Positions 10,410 to 19,465 of a stretch of 64,000 nt of DNA are shown piece by piece (the stretch's first letter is position 1; each line of letters starts with the position of its first letter). The notes below the pieces were generated by a model, which saw only the letters and a program-made list of their open reading frames with translations, had not been told where the DNA came from and did not search any database. The stretch covers positions 124,001 through 188,000 of the IMG/VR virus record IMGVR_UViG_3300042892_005961, one strand, 5' to 3'. The position numbers were made by a program, and so were the translations under genes. Origin of the DNA: a virus.

Positions 10410-10865
10410 TTACTTTTCAAAATTGTCTAAGAACTTTTTTTCCTCTTCAGTTAGACTTTCAATCCCATATAGGTCAATTTTATCTAATACGTCGTCTAAT
10501 TCTAATCTTTCTCGTTGTACCTCAGTATGTTTTTCGTATTCAACTTTAATCATTAATGGATCAGAAGTTGCTGGTTTAAAAATAAAATCATTAATTGTTT
10601 CGGGTAAAAATACACTAACTACAGAAGTTTTCTCAATTAAAAAATAAAATTTAACACTATCGTTTTTTGATAACAAATGTATTTCATCGGATAATACCCC
10701 GTGGTCTTCATTAGAATCAAACATAACAATTATGTTTTGGTTATTTTCAATAACATATCTAACAGTCCAAATAAATGGTGATTTTCCTAATATTTCTAAA
10801 CAAAAAAATTCTATATCTTGGTGGTCATCAAAAACACCATATATGAATAACAAATATGATCTCAT
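10410..10865 (-). CDS. Hypothetical protein
   Basis: The 151-residue protein has a β-rich N-terminal half (MRSYLLFIYGVFDDHQDIEFF; NNQNIIVMFDSNED), which suggests an α/β domain, and a helical end (LDKIDLYGIESLTEEEKKFLDNF). This end motif also closes some bacterial rhomboid-type membrane proteins as a cytoplasmic tail. No catalytic residues are recognised. It precedes the sigma gene by 45 bp. Confidence 0.65.
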   Translation of the reverse strand: MRSYLLFIYGVFDDHQDIEFFCLEILGKSPFIWTVRYVIENNQNIIVMFDSNEDHGVLSDEIHLLSKNDSVKFYFLIEKTSVVSVFLPETINDFIFKPATSDPLMIKVEYEKHTEVQRERLELDDVLDKIDLYGIESLTEEEKKFLDNFEK

Positions 10866-10871
10866 AGTAGT

Positions 10872-11519
10872 TTATTTCTTACGATTTACGTTCCAATAAA
10901 CACCCCCACCAATAAACGGCACTAAAGTTCCATTAGTACCATCAGGACCTATTCTATTAGATACTCCAATACCAATTTTGTATAGATGTTTTGCGTCTTT
11001 ATCTTTTATAATAAATCCAACACCTATAAGATTGATAACATTTGGTTTATCTAATTTGGCATCAATACCAATATAATAAAGATTCTTTCTCGCATCACCT
11101 AAGAACATCGTATCTCTAACTACTTTTTGTTTAATGTCACTTTTAAATGAACGACCCAATACTCTACCATTTGATATTGTATCAAATACAGTTACAGTTC
11201 CAACGTTGTTTGGTAATTTAAGAATATCTTTCTTAAACATTTTCATTCCGATTGAATTTAAAATAGAATTAGTGTCGATCGGGTTACTTACCGTAAAAGT
11301 ATCATGAACCGCATATGGAATTTGTACTTCCACCGGTACTTCTACCTCAACAGGAACTTCAATACCAACTGTATCATGAACGGGAACTTCATATCCCACC
11401 GTATCATGTATAGTAATCGTTCTATGTGGCATAATACCTTTTGGGTTCACGAATTCCACAATAGCCACACCAATCAATAATAAAATTATTATATTTCTAA
11501 TGTCTAAGATGTGTTTCAT
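10872..11519 (-). CDS. Membrane-anchored envelope protein with HDTVGxEVPV repeats
   Basis: This 215-residue protein has one N-terminal membrane helix (NIIILLLIGVAIVEFV). It is followed by repeated segments HDTVGYEVPV, HDTVGIEVPV and VEVPVEVQIPYAVHDTF at about residues 37-75, and a β-rich C-terminal region (YYIGIDAKLDKPNVINLIGVGF; GTLVPFIGGGVYWNV). The repeats probably form an extended stalk. It likely spans the periplasm from the inner membrane. It starts 2 bp from the stop of the following envelope gene, forming an operon with it. Confidence 0.6.
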   Translation of the reverse strand: MKHILDIRNIIILLLIGVAIVEFVNPKGIMPHRTITIHDTVGYEVPVHDTVGIEVPVEVEVPVEVQIPYAVHDTFTVSNPIDTNSILNSIGMKMFKKDILKLPNNVGTVTVFDTISNGRVLGRSFKSDIKQKVVRDTMFLGDARKNLYYIGIDAKLDKPNVINLIGVGFIIKDKDAKHLYKIGIGVSNRIGPDGTNGTLVPFIGGGVYWNVNRKK

Positions 11520-12262: not shown

Positions 12263-12940
12263 TTATTTCTTCTTTTTACCCACGATTTCGTCGATGATAC
12301 CATAGGATAGTGCGTCTTCAGCATTTAACCACAAATCACGAGTCGCATCGTTTTTAACTTGTTCAGCTGGTTTTCCACAATACCCACCCAATAATTCAAA
12401 TAGGATATTATTAACTTTTCTCCACTCAACCATACTGATTTCAGCGTCTTGGATGTTTCCAACCGCTCCACCTGAAGATTGGTGTAACATTGTTTGGGAG
12501 AACCTCAACGAACCTCTTTTACCTTTGGTACCTGCACCTAATAGGACTGAACCCATTGAAGCTGCCATACCTGTATTGATGGTTCTAATGTCTGATTTGA
12601 TATAATCCATTACATCTACCATAGAAAGACCTGACTTAACTGATCCACCAGGACTGTCGATGTGCATTGTAATATCGTTACTGTCGATACTGTCTAAGAA
12701 CATTAACTGAGCCTGAACAATGGTGGACATATGATCGTCTACACCACCCGCAACCCAAATGATACGTTCCATCATCAAACGTGAGAACACGTCCATAACG
12801 GTCACATTTAAGCTTCGTTCCTCTAAGATGTAAGGAGTTAAACTGTTTTCTACTTTTTGATTGTAATAGTCCAATTTCAACGAACTAATACCCTTGTCTT
12901 TTGCATAAAGACCAAACTGTTGGTAATCTTTTGGTGTCAT
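12263..12940 (-). CDS. clpP: ClpP-family serine protease
   Basis: The 225-residue protein carries the ClpP triad: Ser128 in GMAASMGS, His153 in TMLHQSSGG, and Asp202 in TRDLWLNAEDA. The SPGGS oxyanion motif lies near residue 96. The usual N-terminal region is slightly extended and a single basic tail ends the protein. ClpP forms a ring peptidase that works with Clp ATPases. In phages ClpP-like proteins may process capsid proteins or redirect host proteolysis; here no ATPase partner or capsid gene is in the window. It is followed by a terminator. Confidence 0.88.
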   Translation of the reverse strand: MTPKDYQQFGLYAKDKGISSLKLDYYNQKVENSLTPYILEERSLNVTVMDVFSRLMMERIIWVAGGVDDHMSTIVQAQLMFLDSIDSNDITMHIDSPGGSVKSGLSMVDVMDYIKSDIRTINTGMAASMGSVLLGAGTKGKRGSLRFSQTMLHQSSGGAVGNIQDAEISMVEWRKVNNILFELLGGYCGKPAEQVKNDATRDLWLNAEDALSYGIIDEIVGKKKK

Positions 12941-12957
12941 AAATTTAGTTTATAGGA

Positions 12958-12965
12958 CAAATATA
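12958..12965 (-). promoter_or_regulatory. TAnnTTTG-type promoter element before clpP
   Basis: TATATTTG on the coding strand ends 17 nt before the clpP ATG and matches the Bacteroidota primary-sigma -7 element TAnnTTTG. I see no strong -33 TTG box, so this remains tentative. It suggests early transcription by host polymerase. Confidence 0.35.
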
Positions 12966-12981
12966 ATTAAGATATTCGAAA

Positions 12982-15318
12982 CTAAGAAATTTTTGTTGTA
13001 ATAAAATCCACAGACGAAACATTCTCCTCTTTTTTAATCATAATGATGTTATCCGACCAATTACGTATTAAAGAATTATGTGATATAACAAGTATATGGT
13101 CAAAATAATTTTTAATCTTTTTAAAGAACTCACCTACCATTTCAAGGTTCTCATCTGCAATCTTACCGAACACTTCGTCCATTACAACTATATTGGGCTT
13201 GGGTAAAGATGATATCTTAGTTAATACACTACGAAGTGCTAATGAGGATATGGTTCTTTCATAACCAGATCCCGCATTAAGAGGTTTAACAATTCGTGTC
13301 TCTGTATCTATCATAATAAATTCAACCTCGTTCTTATCGTTTATATTCATCTCTAAAATGAAATGACAACTATCCACCAACAAACGATATAATTCTTGAT
13401 TGATTAATGGAATCATATTTTTAAGAATAATTTTGGATATACCATTCTTACCATATACCGTTAAGTATATTTTAAACACGGCAGATAATTCTTCCTCAGC
13501 TGTAATCTTTTTAATTAATTCTTCATTAATACCAATCTTCTCATTCATGTTAGTAATGTTATTGGTATGTTTTTCTATATTCGTATTCGTTTGTCTAATG
13601 TCTCCGTTAGCGGTTTCTATTTTAGTTTTAAGTGCAATAACTTCAGCATCAATCTTTTGGTTCTCTTCAAGTTTCTTTTTATTACTTTCGTAATTGTCTA
13701 ATCTTTTTTGTTTACTATCAATTTCCAATTGTTTTTGTTCTACTTCTAATTCATATCTTTCTTTACGAAGTTTATTTCTTTCGTAATTTTCAAATTCAGT
13801 TTTTAATTTATCAAACCCTTCAGATTGTTCCTTTAATAAATCAAACTGTATTTGATTTAATTCCATTTCTTTAATGATGTCTTCAATTTCTTTTTTAATC
13901 TTTTCAATTTCATCCGTATGATCTACTTCATCTAACGCACGATTACAAGTAGGACAAACTGTTCCTTCTTCAAATTGTTTAATTAGTTTTTCTCTTTGGG
14001 TCTTTTCATGTTTGGATACAACATCAATTCCTTGTAGGTTTGCCATTTCACCTCTTAACTCTTTGTGTTGGTCTTCATCGTAGAATTGTGATGGTTCGAT
14101 TACATTAACTCCATTGGCGTTTGTTTGACTTACATTTTTTTGAGTTAATAAAAAAGTAACTTCTCTTTGTAATAAAACTGGATTGGTATTGATAAGTTCC
14201 TTATCTACGTCGTTGTTTCTTTTTAAAAATACTTCGTCTCTTTTCTTTTCTAACTTTGTTAATTCTTTTTCAAATTTACCTAACTCTTTTGTTAATTTAA
14301 CAATCTCACTTTCAGAGTTAGTTATACTTTCTTTGTATGTTTCATTATCGGATTCTAAACTAACTTTGTTATATGTGTTAGATACTAATTTCTTAGACCA
14401 ATCATTATACATCTCTTTAGCAATTTCTTCTTTTGCTTTAAGACTTTCTAATCCCATGAACTTTGTTAATATCTGTCCACGAGCTGTTGGTTTAGACTCA
14501 ATAAGTTCTTCTAAGTTATAACCAGTTGTTAATATAGTTGATAAGAAGTCTTCTTGTGTTCCAATTGCAGACGATATAAATGCTTCCGTCTCTCTTCTTT
14601 GTTCGCCGGATAAATTTACAATAGATCCGTCTTCAGCTTTCTTAAAAAATTCTAAGTCATTCTTAACCGTGTATTCACCTGACTTACTCATCTTACGAGA
14701 TGTCTTTCTCTCAATTACATAATCATCTCCATCAATTGTAATCTCACCACGAACACTCACATCATTCTTATCGGTAAATCTATTAAAGATTTCTCCGTTA
14801 GTTTTAGTTTTAGTTGTTGTGTTGAAGAATAGAAACATCAATAGATCTACAGATGATGTAGACTTACCACCGAAATTCTTTGGTGTGGATTCGATTACCG
14901 TAATACCGTCCAACCCAGTAAAATCAATAACGTTATTATCTCCGAATGATAGAAAATTAGAAAACTCCACTTTCCTAATATACCATTTATTATATCTAAC
15001 TTTGTTTTCATTTAATTTGTCTATTTGGGAATTTACTTTATTATCTAATCTTTCCATTAACTCCTCCTTAATGATTATTTCATTGTCGGAAAGAAAATCC
15101 TTCATCAATTTCTTTTGGTATTGATGATCTAAGATGTTATCAGATGCTTCTAAAGACTCTAAACGTGTTTGATTAACATTAGTTAAAGTCTTAGTAATTA
15201 CCTGAACGGTCTTCGCATTATACTTTTTCTCAAAATAAGATTTCACCCTTCTGATTTTCTCAGGAGTGAAATTCTCAGGTACATCTTCCCAAGTTACTTT
15301 TATAAAAGGATTACTCAT
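12982..15318 (-). CDS. 46: Gp46/SbcC/Rad50-like recombination nuclease ATPase
   Basis: This 778-residue SMC-type protein has its ATP-binding lobe near residues 111-160 (YIRKVEFSNFLSFG, then KNFGGKSTSS as Walker A). Two coiled-coil arms surround the zinc hook CPTC near residue 454. Walker B (IVVMDEVFGKI) is near residue 713. It pairs with the gp47-like nuclease. Two oddities are a ~110-residue N-terminal extension before the ATPase lobe, absent in usual gp46, and a Walker A loop reading PKNFGGKST rather than GxNGxGKST. Confidence 0.88.
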   Translation of the reverse strand: MSNPFIKVTWEDVPENFTPEKIRRVKSYFEKKYNAKTVQVITKTLTNVNQTRLESLEASDNILDHQYQKKLMKDFLSDNEIIIKEELMERLDNKVNSQIDKLNENKVRYNKWYIRKVEFSNFLSFGDNNVIDFTGLDGITVIESTPKNFGGKSTSSVDLLMFLFFNTTTKTKTNGEIFNRFTDKNDVSVRGEITIDGDDYVIERKTSRKMSKSGEYTVKNDLEFFKKAEDGSIVNLSGEQRRETEAFISSAIGTQEDFLSTILTTGYNLEELIESKPTARGQILTKFMGLESLKAKEEIAKEMYNDWSKKLVSNTYNKVSLESDNETYKESITNSESEIVKLTKELGKFEKELTKLEKKRDEVFLKRNNDVDKELINTNPVLLQREVTFLLTQKNVSQTNANGVNVIEPSQFYDEDQHKELRGEMANLQGIDVVSKHEKTQREKLIKQFEEGTVCPTCNRALDEVDHTDEIEKIKKEIEDIIKEMELNQIQFDLLKEQSEGFDKLKTEFENYERNKLRKERYELEVEQKQLEIDSKQKRLDNYESNKKKLEENQKIDAEVIALKTKIETANGDIRQTNTNIEKHTNNITNMNEKIGINEELIKKITAEEELSAVFKIYLTVYGKNGISKIILKNMIPLINQELYRLLVDSCHFILEMNINDKNEVEFIMIDTETRIVKPLNAGSGYERTISSLALRSVLTKISSLPKPNIVVMDEVFGKIADENLEMVGEFFKKIKNYFDHILVISHNSLIRNWSDNIIMIKKEENVSSVDFITTKIS

Positions 15319-16423
15319 TAGTTTTTATTTCATCAATGAAACCATTATTAATTAATACACCTTGTATTAAATCTGATCTTAAATTAAACGCTCCGTTTGT
15401 TGATTTAAAAGATACTTTAGACCAATCGGTATTAGTAAGTAAATTAAAAATATTTTCTTTATCTTTTAATATGACAATACCATATCCGGTTTTTTTAGGT
15501 AATGATAAAAAATTATCATGTATCCTCATATTATCCTGACCAAAACAAGTCAATGGAAGATATATGTCACATTTATCTAACATATTTTTATTTCTCGTCG
15601 TTGCAATCGTTCCTCCATTAGACAACGAATATAATTTTATATAATCATTACATGTTCTATTATCCTTTCCAATTTTAAAATTTTTAGACCATATTTGAAA
15701 TATGACATTAACCTTAACTTCTTTTCCATCAGGAAAATAAAAATGAGGATTAATGTTTGAACTGTATATTAAATTCAACCCTTCTACTCTTGATTTAGTC
15801 GATCCTTTACCGTCACTATCAAATAGTTGTGGCAATATAAAACCAACAAAATCTGCGTAGTTTGAATGATTTAAAAATCTTAAAGCCAAATTTGATCTTA
15901 AACCAAAAGGTGGATTACCTAAAACCAAATATTTCTTATCCGTATCGGGTGACCATTTCAAATAATCTTTAATAACAATATTTTCTAAATTACTTTCAAT
16001 GTCAATACCAATTCTTCTATCTTCAGGAAATAAATTATAAAAACTACCGTCCCCAACGGATGGTTCTACATATGTGTATTCTAATTCATCTACATCATGT
16101 TCTTTTAAAACCGTTTGGAAAAGATCAAAACATAATTTGGCAGTTTCTTTTGATGTAAAGAATTGATCTTTTTCTTTTGGAGTTAATGTTGATAGATCAA
16201 CAGGTATACCCAACATTTCCGATAAATCAAATTTATAATAATTGGGTACATTATCAAGATCAATCCATCTTTTTATTGTACCGTTATTAACATTGATATA
16301 TTTTGATATATGTTTTATACCCTCAATCCCTAAACTAATTTTTTCTTTTTTTGTTTGTTCTTTAGTAAAAGTAATGTTAGAGTATTTTTCAATACATTTA
16401 AATAAAATATCTAAATTATCCAT
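15311..16423 (-). CDS. N6-adenine DNA methyltransferase of a putative R-M pair
   Basis: The 370-residue protein has AdoMet motif I-like EPSVGDGSFYNLFP (about residue 124) and the amino-methylase motif IV NPPF (about residue 171, LVLGNPPFGLRSN). The first ~80 residues contain a likely helix-turn-helix (SKYINVNNGTIKRWIDL), which may bind DNA or control its own expression. It overlaps gp46 by 8 bp and the upstream putative endonuclease by 8 bp. Layout and motifs resemble a type II restriction-modification methylase; target sequence is unknown. Confidence 0.78.
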   Translation of the reverse strand: MDNLDILFKCIEKYSNITFTKEQTKKEKISLGIEGIKHISKYINVNNGTIKRWIDLDNVPNYYKFDLSEMLGIPVDLSTLTPKEKDQFFTSKETAKLCFDLFQTVLKEHDVDELEYTYVEPSVGDGSFYNLFPEDRRIGIDIESNLENIVIKDYLKWSPDTDKKYLVLGNPPFGLRSNLALRFLNHSNYADFVGFILPQLFDSDGKGSTKSRVEGLNLIYSSNINPHFYFPDGKEVKVNVIFQIWSKNFKIGKDNRTCNDYIKLYSLSNGGTIATTRNKNMLDKCDIYLPLTCFGQDNMRIHDNFLSLPKKTGYGIVILKDKENIFNLLTNTDWSKVSFKSTNGAFNLRSDLIQGVLINNGFIDEIKTNE

Positions 16424-17111
16424 TAATAATTAAATGTTTTTCTAAAAATCTTTTTATTTGTTCATCTGTAGAATTATATATTTCTATTGTGTTTCCAAAT
16501 CGAACTCCTTTATATAATGAACTAAGACTTAATGTTAATTTACCAACATCAGTTCTTTTTCTTATACATAATTTAACATTAAAAACTTCGTGTGTTTCAA
16601 TTGGATATAATTCTGAAGGATTAATAGATGTCATAAATATTTCATTTGGGGTGATAGACATTAATATATACTTATCACATACGTTTTCTTTAAACGTCTC
16701 ATATTGAAATGTATTATTGTTTGTTCCAACTGTTGCAGTTTTAATTTCAGTCCTAACCGTTGTATTAGATTGTAATGGGTATATTTTCATATCGTAAATA
16801 CCATCACCTTTATTTGTGTTTCTATCTCCATCGTATTCAACAGTAAACGTTTTGGGGTAATTTTTAACGATTGATTCAACCATTAATTCCCCTACTTTTC
16901 CTACTGCATCTGAATTACCTAAACTTTTTATTTTTTCGTTTTTAGACCCTACCCATTTATTGCTGGTTTTAATTTTTTCAATTGATTCTAATAAAACATT
17001 ACTACAACTATTATTTTTCGATGGTGTGTCTTGTTCAATTATTTTTATTTGTTTTTCAATTTTTTGATTGTAAATCATTATATCCTCATCAGTTATTGTA
17101 ATATTTGCCAT
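16416..17111 (-). CDS. Putative PD-(D/E)XK restriction endonuclease
   Basis: This 231-residue protein has a pattern fitting a PD-(D/E)XK core: GKVGELMVESIVKNY (Glu at about residue 77), GDGIYDMKI (Asp near 106), and RTEIKTATVG (ExK near 121-123). The N-terminal ~60 residues are a charged helix and the C-terminal half is β-rich. It overlaps the N6-adenine methylase by 8 bp, the standard arrangement of restriction-modification genes. The catalytic role is inferred from motif spacing and context, not from a family match. Confidence 0.6.
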   Translation of the reverse strand: MANITITDEDIMIYNQKIEKQIKIIEQDTPSKNNSCSNVLLESIEKIKTSNKWVGSKNEKIKSLGNSDAVGKVGELMVESIVKNYPKTFTVEYDGDRNTNKGDGIYDMKIYPLQSNTTVRTEIKTATVGTNNNTFQYETFKENVCDKYILMSITPNEIFMTSINPSELYPIETHEVFNVKLCIRKRTDVGKLTLSLSSLYKGVRFGNTIEIYNSTDEQIKRFLEKHLIING

Positions 17112-17118
17112 TTTATTT

Positions 17119-17433
17119 TTATTTTATTCTATTTTCTTCAAAAAACTCAATTATTGAATTTAGGCACCACACCGCTCCCGATGTAAAAACAGCATCAGCA
17201 AAAAGATTCCAAAATAAATTTGTTTGGAAATAGTGATTACATAAACCACCTAACGCAAGTGACATTACCCAACCTAAGTGAAAACCCAAACATAGGGGAC
17301 ATGTCATAAGTTTATAAAAGAAAGAAGATTTAGTTTTTACCCATTCTCTCAAGTCTTCAAAGATTGTCGACCAAGAAATTATACACATACATCCGTAAGC
17401 GGCAAGGACCCAAAATAACATTATCATAATCAT
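17119..17433 (-). CDS. DUF1360-like membrane protein with CPLCLGF motif
   Basis: This 104-residue protein has membrane segments at about residues 1-20, 48-68 and 75-93. Its signature CPLCLGFHLGW matches the DUF1360 CPxCLGFW pattern, with the two Cys in a loop entering a helix. Function of that family is unknown. Several ATG codons in the first five residues could be the start. It is 7 bp from the putative endonuclease. Confidence 0.65.
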   Translation of the reverse strand: MIMIMLFWVLAAYGCMCIISWSTIFEDLREWVKTKSSFFYKLMTCPLCLGFHLGWVMSLALGGLCNHYFQTNLFWNLFADAVFTSGAVWCLNSIIEFFEENRIK

Positions 17434-17458
17434 TAAATTTTTTATTATTATAAATTAA

Positions 17459-17494
17459 AATAACCCCCATATTAATTAAAATACAGGGGTTATT
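17459..17494 (-). terminator. Hairpin terminator after 17500-18051
   Basis: The inverted repeat AATAACCCC/GGGGTTATT (9 bp) with an A/T loop lies 6 bp beyond the stop at 17500 and is followed on the coding strand by a T-rich tract. It separates this gene from the DUF1360-like gene. Confidence 0.65.
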
Positions 17495-17499
17495 CTATA

Positions 17500-18051
17500 T
17501 TAAAAGTTTGTATCTAAAATGTACACACCATCAATTAGGTTGTACACTTCAACATCTTCTCTTTTAAATGATCTCCATTCTTCAGGTTCACCTGTGGTAA
17601 TCCATTTGGTTTGGAAATTTGCAACATGACATTTAGCGGGATTTGCAAATGTTTCAGGTCTAATTAAAATAACCTGAGAAAAATCCACATTAGTTCTAAT
17701 GTAAATATTTTTATCCCATCCTTGATTTTTTTCGGGATTCCAATATTTGGACTTCCTCCACCAAGGGATGTTTACGGTTTTAAAACCTAAACCGCTTTTG
17801 TTATTAAGACCCTTGTTTTCATCTGAGAAAAAATCACCAGTCCAATTTTTGGAATGTTCGATTTCTATTCCCCAAATAGGGTCTTCTTTGTACAATAAAT
17901 CAATACCGTACTTATTTGGATTTGCAATCATTTCAAGTTCTAATGTTTCCATTGAGAATTTAATTATTGCATTTCTTGATGAGGAATCATCGAAACCTCC
18001 CGTGTTGTAGACTCTTGGTCTACCTGTAGCCATTGTTGACATAAGATTCAT
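17500..18051 (-). CDS. Hypothetical protein, possible PD-(D/E)XK-like fold
   Basis: The 183-residue protein contains YGIDLLYKEDPIWGIEIEHSKNW (counted from about residue 47). Its spacing of Asp and Glu-x-Glu resembles the core of variant PD-(D/E)XK nucleases. The rest is rich in Trp, Asn and Lys (WWRKSKYWNPEKNQGW). I cannot match it to a known family, so nuclease function is only a possibility. It has its own terminator and is near the putative restriction-modification pair. Confidence 0.6.
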   Translation of the reverse strand: MNLMSTMATGRPRVYNTGGFDDSSSRNAIIKFSMETLELEMIANPNKYGIDLLYKEDPIWGIEIEHSKNWTGDFFSDENKGLNNKSGLGFKTVNIPWWRKSKYWNPEKNQGWDKNIYIRTNVDFSQVILIRPETFANPAKCHVANFQTKWITTGEPEEWRSFKREDVEVYNLIDGVYILDTNF

Positions 18052-18138: not shown

Positions 18139-18672
18139 TTATTCATCATACAGTGATCCTAAGTCACTATTTTTAAGGTATCTACCTTTACCTAAACCAC
18201 TTAAAGATTTGGTTATTTTATCTAAATCAGATTTTAATTTTTCATTCTCCTTCATCAACTTTTCTATCTCTTCGTTGTTGGTTATCTCTTTAATAACTTC
18301 CACAATTTTTTCAACAGGAACCTCTTTAATGACTTCCTTTGTAACGGTCTTAGTCTTACCCTTCTTTTCAACTACAACCTCTTTAATGACCTCTATTGGT
18401 ACCTCTATTCTTACTTCCTTAATTACCTCTTTAATAACTTCAATAGGTACCTCTACAATTTTTTCAACTTCAACAATCACTTCCTTTATTACCTCTTTTG
18501 TGACTTCGACTATTTCTTTAGTTCTATTACCATTTGGTGTCTCACCATACTTTAACAAAGAAAACCCTCTATTGAAGGTTTCTTGTGCTAACTTATCTAC
18601 ATTATCTATTTTATTTAATTCACAATATTGAATAAACTCATTATCCAAGATTAACGTGCTCTTCGGTTTCAT
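18139..18672 (-). CDS. Coiled protein with KEVIKEVP repeats
   Basis: This 177-residue protein has a small α/β N-terminal domain (STLILDNEFIQYCELNKIDNVDKLAQETFNRGF shape). A long stretch of repeated Val-Lys-Glu units follows (PIEVIKEVIKEV, VTKEVIKEVPVEK; about residues 60-120), then a helical end. The repeats may form a rigid stalk. The 5' end overlaps gp47 by 32 bp. Similar Val/Lys/Glu repeats occur in phage proteins of unknown function. Confidence 0.65.
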   Translation of the reverse strand: MKPKSTLILDNEFIQYCELNKIDNVDKLAQETFNRGFSLLKYGETPNGNRTKEIVEVTKEVIKEVIVEVEKIVEVPIEVIKEVIKEVRIEVPIEVIKEVVVEKKGKTKTVTKEVIKEVPVEKIVEVIKEITNNEEIEKLMKENEKLKSDLDKITKSLSGLGKGRYLKNSDLGSLYDE

Positions 18673-19465
18673 TTTCTATGTCTTTGATATCGTTTATTCT
18701 AAAGTGTAGGAACGGTTGTGCATTTTCTAAATCGTGAAATTCATATTCATTAGATTCTACATCGTATACTCCATACCCATGATGTTTAACTGTCTCTCCA
18801 AAATTTTGTTGTATAAGACTACCAACCATTATTGCATGACCTCCATTTGGTAATGTGAACTGTTGTCTCTTGTGAATATCACCACATAACAATAAATCTA
18901 AATCAACAAAGTTTAATTGATCATACGCATCTTCAAACTCATAACCTAAGTCTGTCGATAACCCCATAATCGGTCCATGGAACAGTCCAACCGTTAATAA
19001 ACCTTCTTGTTTTGTAAATTCAGGTCTTACGTTGTGTTGATATAATGAATAAACAACCCATTGAACGCTACCATCGGTATCAACATAATCACCACTATCT
19101 TTTAGGTATGTGATGTGTTGATTGTCTAATAATTGAACGACTGGTGTTATACTATCCATACGTTGTGTATTATTCTCCAAGAAGTCGTGATTACCTGGTA
19201 TTATTACAACCTTACCAAAACGAGTTAACTCTTTTAAAAACCAACTCGTTAATAGTAATTGTTCATTTGAAATATTAATTTTTTGATGTGCGATATCACC
19301 CGCAACAACAATTCTAATTTCGTTATGTGATATATTTTCATCTGCCCATTCTAAAAATTTTACACTTAATTCATTTAATAATATTTCGAATTGTTCTCTA
19401 TACAAATCATGCATTTGAATTGTACGAATATGTAAATCAGCAATATGAATTATCTTTTTGACCAT
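18641..19465 (-). CDS. 47: Gp47/SbcD/Mre11-like nuclease
   Basis: The 274-residue protein has the calcineurin-like phosphoesterase motifs of Mre11: HIADLHIR (Asp10, His12), VAGDIAHQ (Asp57, His60), IPGNHDF (91-95), GLFHG, and CGDIHKRQ, which together bind the two metals. It forms the nuclease half of the gp46/gp47 complex that resects DNA ends for phage recombination. It is shorter than T4 gp47 (339), lacking part of the C-terminal region. Normally adjacent to gp46, here it is about 3.3 kb away. Confidence 0.9.
   Translation of the reverse strand: MVKKIIHIADLHIRTIQMHDLYREQFEILLNELSVKFLEWADENISHNEIRIVVAGDIAHQKINISNEQLLLTSWFLKELTRFGKVVIIPGNHDFLENNTQRMDSITPVVQLLDNQHITYLKDSGDYVDTDGSVQWVVYSLYQHNVRPEFTKQEGLLTVGLFHGPIMGLSTDLGYEFEDAYDQLNFVDLDLLLCGDIHKRQQFTLPNGGHAIMVGSLIQQNFGETVKHHGYGVYDVESNEYEFHDLENAQPFLHFRINDIKDIENETEEHVNLG

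Follow-up and report, generated by a model that had tools for sequence, protein, structure and literature searches.

What is a putative restriction-modification (R-M) gene pair doing between gp46 and gp47 of a large phage, and does it belong there? The locus lies in positions 124,001 to 188,000 of IMG/VR virus record IMGVR_UViG_3300042892_005961, a 64,000-nucleotide stretch that we call the window, within a record of 211,168 base pairs (bp) that may be incomplete. A sequence-only reading of the window had proposed that an adenine methylase gene and an overlapping gene for a PD-(D/E)XK-like protein form an R-M pair at this position. We compared the gp47-gp46 interval with that of related phages and find that the interval is a hypervariable slot; the pair is probably a phage-borne type II R-M module, one of many that are interchangeable in this slot, with the role proposed below.

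Both open reading frames (ORFs) of the pair, their strand and their 8-bp overlap agree with the earlier description, and the two flanking genes named there as gp46 and gp47 are supported by both PHROGs and Pfam. The methylase stop in turn overlaps the 5' end of gp46 by 8 bp. The pair and the edges of the interval are as follows.

16416..17111, minus strand: putative type II restriction endonuclease, 231 amino acids (PD-(D/E)XK-like motif, PADLOC REase_II match, residue conservation)
15311..16423, minus strand: gamma-type (NPPF) adenine DNA methyltransferase, 370 amino acids (PADLOC MTase_II)
12982..15318, minus strand: gp46/SbcC/Rad50-like subunit (phrog_77, E=9.5e-50); its 5' end bounds the slot downstream
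18641..19465, minus strand: gp47/SbcD/Mre11-like nuclease subunit (Metallophos, E=8.9e-10; phrog_100, E=3.9e-22); the upstream edge of the interval

Using gp47 as query we found 117 relatives, of which the best 80 viral loci were kept. These gave 64 intervals having both gp47 and gp46, the window included, which fall into 37 architectures by ORF content; these counts describe ORF-level architectures rather than independent exchange events. From gp47 to gp46 the distance is anywhere between 830 and 4750 bp, and of the 37 architectures a single one comes within 20 bp of the median value. Neighbouring spacings are constant, between exo and gp47 in 51 of 53 groups, between primase and exo in 49 of 53, and between gp46 and ClpP in 23 of 29. 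Two genes are conserved markers across the relatives, and cargo is located either between them or, mostly, between the second of them and gp46.

18139..18672, minus strand: KEVIKEV-repeat, coiled-coil-like protein, 177 amino acids, kept beside gp47 in relatives
17119..17433, minus strand: small membrane-like protein, 104 amino acids, conserved, separating the two cargo positions, with only weak library matches

The 104-residue protein had been called DUF1360-like; the gene is present, and Pfam does not confirm the label. As to wide conservation of the layout with unrelated functions, a point that the sequence-only reading had raised against itself, the flanks are conserved and the cargo is variable, being R-M-like in roughly half of the architectures; the others contain nuclease-like genes of the type found at 17500-18051 (x183, described below), other genes, or nothing. 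Two architectures are empty (L061 and L079/L080).

The main evidence for an R-M function comes from the cargo of the relatives. A methyltransferase is present in 18 architectures, two of which (L053 and L063) have two modules each, giving 20 modules for comparison. In all 20 an intact partner gene lies directly upstream on the same strand, with an overlap of at most 62 bp or a gap of at most 6 bp, so the pairing is not due to chance. The partners fall into 14 families having no mutual similarity detectable by BLASTP, and the methylases span the D12 (DPPY), beta-type (DPPY/SPPY) and gamma-type (NPPF/NPPY) classes. Several partners are recognizable restriction enzymes: that of L048 belongs to the EcoRI family (PF02963, 27.8 bits against a cut-off of 22; PADLOC 1e-5), in a module also found in L049 and L053; that of L082 belongs to ICEA (PF05315, 93.6 bits against a cut-off of 24); those of L026 and L039 match PADLOC REase_II (4.5e-9 and 7.5e-11); and that of L059 has a sub-threshold BsuBI/PstI match. 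Nine of ten other slot methylases tested match models of type II or related methyltransferases; the L083 methylase has no PADLOC match at 1e-10, contains NPPY and is 27.6% identical to the L084 methylase. With 14 unrelated modules of partner plus methyltransferase in the slot, some with EcoRI, ICEA or REase_II partners, the proposed R-M pair gains support. The EcoRI-like and IceA-like slot proteins had no match in the phage record collection.

A few further genes were noted in the same intervals. L019 has at 10713-11312 a protein that looks EcoRI-like by eye (ESKRQ...GNAHER), in a slot with no adjacent methylase. The HNH (IceA-like) protein of L082 (10494-11447) is accompanied by a methylase, and a protein similar in appearance in L088 (11841-12800) is not; the L088 interval also contains a UDP-glucose-dehydrogenase-like gene.

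These modules bear directly on another account, in which the methylase alone matters, hiding phage DNA from host restriction in the manner of orphan anti-restriction methylases, and the partner is hitch-hiking or unrelated. Solitary methylases are indeed the usual R-M gene of phages, 143 against 12 solitary restriction endonucleases (PMC4176335), and diverse methylases would fit protection against diverse host systems. The regular presence of the partner, its recognizable identity in several modules, and the conservation of ExK residues in the window-type partner at 31-33% identity all speak against it. So does selection: the ratio of nonsynonymous to synonymous substitution (dN/dS, or omega) of the partner gene is 0.12-0.19 in three other modules (L063/L070, L048/L049/L053 and L039/L062), compared with 0.12 for gp47 and 0.06-0.18 for the methylases of the same modules. 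Purifying selection thus keeps the partners of these three modules as proteins, contrary to what hitch-hiking would predict. We consider this account unlikely, and rejected an orphan phage methyltransferase as the identity of the element, since a putative nuclease lies directly upstream in every module. Type IIG, type I and type III R-M systems were rejected as well, since the pair consists of two separate short proteins and the interval contains neither a helicase nor a specificity gene.

In the window itself, both motif I (EPSVGDGSF) and NPPF occur in the 370-residue methylase, which has matches to PADLOC MTase_II (E=4.6e-50) and to the phage DNA methyltransferase family phrog_799 (E=8.9e-8); its relatives in phage records are distant, at 28-36% identity over at most 72% of the length. 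The motif and the MTase_II match bear out the adenine methylase of the sequence-only reading, and its N-terminal region looks like the helix-turn-helix named there. Outside the window, at G000:C1:38591-39088 (L095), PF01555 (32 bits) gives a second match of the N6/N4 methylase type, and the matched frame contains one TAG.

The 231-residue protein has the sequence GE(75)...DGIYD(103-107)...EIK(122-124), a PD-(D/E)XK-like layout. Its putative catalytic core, residues 67-153, has a weak match to PADLOC REase_II (E=0.0012). BLASTP found two homologues, both beside relatives of the same methylase: those of L063 (33% identity, methylase 77%) and L081 (31%, methylase 74%). Residues G74, E75, D103, G104, I105, Y106, R120, E122, K124, T125 and A126 are invariant in the three proteins. 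An AlphaFold model built from three sequences was poor, with a predicted local distance difference test score (pLDDT) of 52.8. Its low-confidence elements (pLDDT 45-62) run helix 67-83, then strands 89-93, 106-112 (containing D107), 119-126 (containing E122 and K124), 145-154 and 157-163, an order compatible with a PD-(D/E)XK core in which the second helix is not modelled. Foldseek with this poor model gave no significant match (SPARDA nuclease, MepB and, lower, R.SwaI and HincII were listed), and Pfam, NCBIfam and PDB sequence searches gave no usable match. Thus the earlier PD-(D/E)XK suggestion stands as to the motif, kept at low identity, while the predicted fold gives no decision; the protein is a putative nuclease by motif conservation, position and context, not by fold.

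One might instead see in the partner a PD-(D/E)XK-fold nuclease of recombination or replication, resolvase-like for example, with a methylase that regulates it or marks DNA for it. Its location in a recombination operon would suit such a role, as would a weak match to RmuC; we rejected an RmuC identity because this match (E=0.0015) is below the cut-off and misses the ExK residues. Fourteen unrelated partner types and empty sites are a poor fit to a core replication gene, and we regard this as very improbable.

Exchange of the slot contents is seen where closely related phages have different cassettes. L083 is collinear with the window without gaps on both sides, at 96.5% identity over 4888 bp upstream and 97.0% over 4312 bp downstream, and has between these flanks a different pair of nuclease-like and methylase genes.

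15312..17113, no strand: exchanged segment, with an unrelated pair in L083 and collinear, approximately 96.5-97% identical DNA on either side

The junctions lie at most a few bases from the start and stop codons. Over the last ~60 bp of the gene for the 104-residue protein identity is already lower, and a recombination point is likely there. L049 and L054 are similar: their flanks are 99.1% and 94.4% identical, their modules are different, and each is found in three contigs. Halves appear to move as well. The distant relative L093 has at 12835-14283, after gp46, a beta-type methylase 76% identical to one of L063, with a different upstream partner, and the methylases of L039 and L063 are 55% identical while their partners have no similarity. 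These four comparisons indicate that modules, and also their halves, are exchanged.

Such precise replacement at gene boundaries and such frequent turnover are also what selfish cargo would produce, whether by post-segregational killing or by homing-like spread through cutting between co-infecting phages, since an enzyme that leaves its own allele uncut could favour the spread of that allele. Type II enzymes, unlike homing enzymes, cut many sites, however, and the two empty architectures show that these phages can do without a cassette. A search of the 211-kb record for an integrase found none, with the caveat on its completeness given above; for that reason the idea that the pair keeps its locus by addiction, raised in the sequence-only reading, has become less likely. 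Selfish cargo of either kind seems to us improbable.

Several observations weigh against reading the window pair as a type II R-M module. For nine of the 14 partner families the label of endonuclease comes mainly from position, as they show no convincing match to a nuclease. The 231-residue protein itself lacks a strong family match, its model is poor and no structural match is significant. The two halves of its module have diverged very differently from those of L063 (33% against 77% identity). Omega for the window-type partner is ~0.45-0.54, near saturation, at a divergence too high for a sound estimate, and near-identical window-type loci have no differences in the nuclease, making the comparison of selection there uninformative. 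Finally, all of the loci are metagenome assemblies. Taking these together with the evidence above, we still consider it very probable that the window pair are type II R-M genes.

What such a pair would do for the phage is a separate matter. Restriction activity, a specificity shared by the two enzymes, their targets and the selective reason are all inferred. The methylase would mark phage DNA at one sequence, so that virion DNA arrives protected, and the endonuclease would cut unmarked DNA at the same sequence. During infection the module would be active on unmodified host DNA and on the DNA of co-infecting rivals, and the gp46/47 exonuclease would go on to digest the cut ends. In T4, endonucleases begin the breakdown of host DNA, and the gene 46/47 exonuclease takes it to completion (PMC6071114); a restriction enzyme from the same gene run would add breaks at specific sequences. 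A role in cutting host or rival DNA is somewhat favoured by the evidence.

Exclusion of competing phages alone, a weapon for superinfection or co-infection with no breakdown of host DNA, is a possible though less than probable alternative. The Marseillevirus R-M system spares host DNA and has been proposed to act on co-infecting viruses (PMC7253447), and fast turnover of specificity fits a conflict among related phages. Chlorovirus restriction enzymes, on the other hand, were found not to cause viral exclusion (PMC7019647), and the position between gp47 and gp46, whose T4 products degrade host DNA, points to host DNA as well. We would favour both targets together over the host only or rivals only.

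The cassettes would recombine through the conserved flanks, the 3' end of the membrane-protein gene and the 5' end of gp46, and turnover would be driven by the loss of value of a common specificity once hosts or rivals share its methylation. We advance only tentatively, at a little under even chances, the full proposal of a dedicated, fast-exchanging R-M slot in which rare specificities are a weapon against unmodified host and rival DNA under negative frequency-dependent selection.

The remaining genes of the region include a second nuclease candidate. The minus-strand gene run is gp47, the KEVIKEV-repeat gene, the genes for the proteins of 183, 104 and 231 residues, the methylase, gp46 and ClpP, and the separate Dam-type methylase reported by the sequence-only reading is present elsewhere in the window.

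17500..18051, minus strand: x183 protein, 183 amino acids, a recurring accessory gene of the interval, with a probable PD-(D/E)XK-like fold
12263..12940, minus strand: ClpP-family protease, directly after gp46
794-1807 (ORF): D12/Dam-type methylase, separate from the pair (PF02086, E=6.1e-21)

Fifteen x183 homologues were compared; they are found at one or the other cargo position, whether or not an R-M pair is present, and x183-type genes (17500-18051 in the window; L020, L050, L076 and others) occur in many relatives that have no methylase. The motif is I50-D51...E63-x-E65...K100, with D51, E63, E65 and K100 nearly or fully invariant. The model has a pLDDT of 87.9, and Foldseek ranks mainly restriction or resolvase folds highest for it (NhoI, DpnI, RecU, D212), though none at E<0.001. 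Possibly x183 is one more nuclease; that methylated DNA is what NhoI and DpnI cut is for x183 a lead only. Between the genes for the 183- and 104-residue proteins, at 17456-17497, is a hairpin with an 18-bp stem and an A/T-rich tail, possibly a terminator or processing site dividing the gene run; a promoter scan gave no more matches than shuffled sequence. The best Pfam match of the ClpP-family protein is Clp protease, and PHROGs labels it a head maturation protease. In L090/L091 (11380-11955) gp46 is interrupted after the Walker A region by an intein-looking sequence.

The preferred module resembles known systems in part. Like type II R-M systems such as EcoRI and NlaIII/IceA, it has adjacent nuclease and methyltransferase genes, and the EcoRI and ICEA families are represented among the slot modules. 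It differs from them in lying within the replication/recombination gene run of a large phage, an apparently virulent tailed one, in the alternation of many unrelated systems at one fixed site, and in a nuclease having no close known relative: none was found in phages, plasmids or 84,980 bacterial and archaeal genomes. Temperate-phage and satellite defence-gene hotspots have fixed flanks and interchangeable anti-phage cargo; here the cargo is instead mainly nuclease and methylase pairs between gp46 and gp47, with no integrase detected. Chloroviruses also encode adjacent nuclease and methylase genes (CviJI, CviAII and others); it is proposed that the restriction enzymes break down host DNA at an early stage of infection and that the methylase spares viral DNA (PMC7019647). 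They are viruses of eukaryotic algae, however, and are not known to have a single slot in a host-DNA-degradation operon. Marseillevirus likewise encodes a pair, a GATC R-M system, by which its own DNA is protected while that of a co-infecting relative stays susceptible, though this is a giant virus of amoebae, with one specificity and with host DNA unaffected (PMC7253447). Modification of phage DNA is shared with phage orphan methyltransferases and with the Mom-nuclease fusions of jumbo phages, which are predicted to attack host or superinfecting DNA (PMC4176335, PMC7824862); the modules here have nuclease and methylase as separate proteins in the style of type II, encoded as pairs in a cassette that can be replaced. 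Literature searches limited to open-licence papers turned up no dedicated R-M slot such as that between gp46 and gp47. This suggests that the slot with its alternating modules is what is new, the pair itself belonging to known type II R-M.

R-M systems count as bacterial immunity, and complete ones are reported to be nearly absent from phages, with nine systems in 831 phage genomes; the same study asks how R-M genes turn over fast yet are rare on known mobile elements (PMC4176335). In a single phage lineage, no fewer than 14 unrelated R-M-like pairs replace one another at one site, which lies between the counterparts of T4 genes for host DNA degradation. If active, these would be a defence system turned into a phage weapon. 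A phage reservoir of this kind could help to explain the fast turnover of R-M systems despite that rarity, and the slot may be a source of new restriction specificities.

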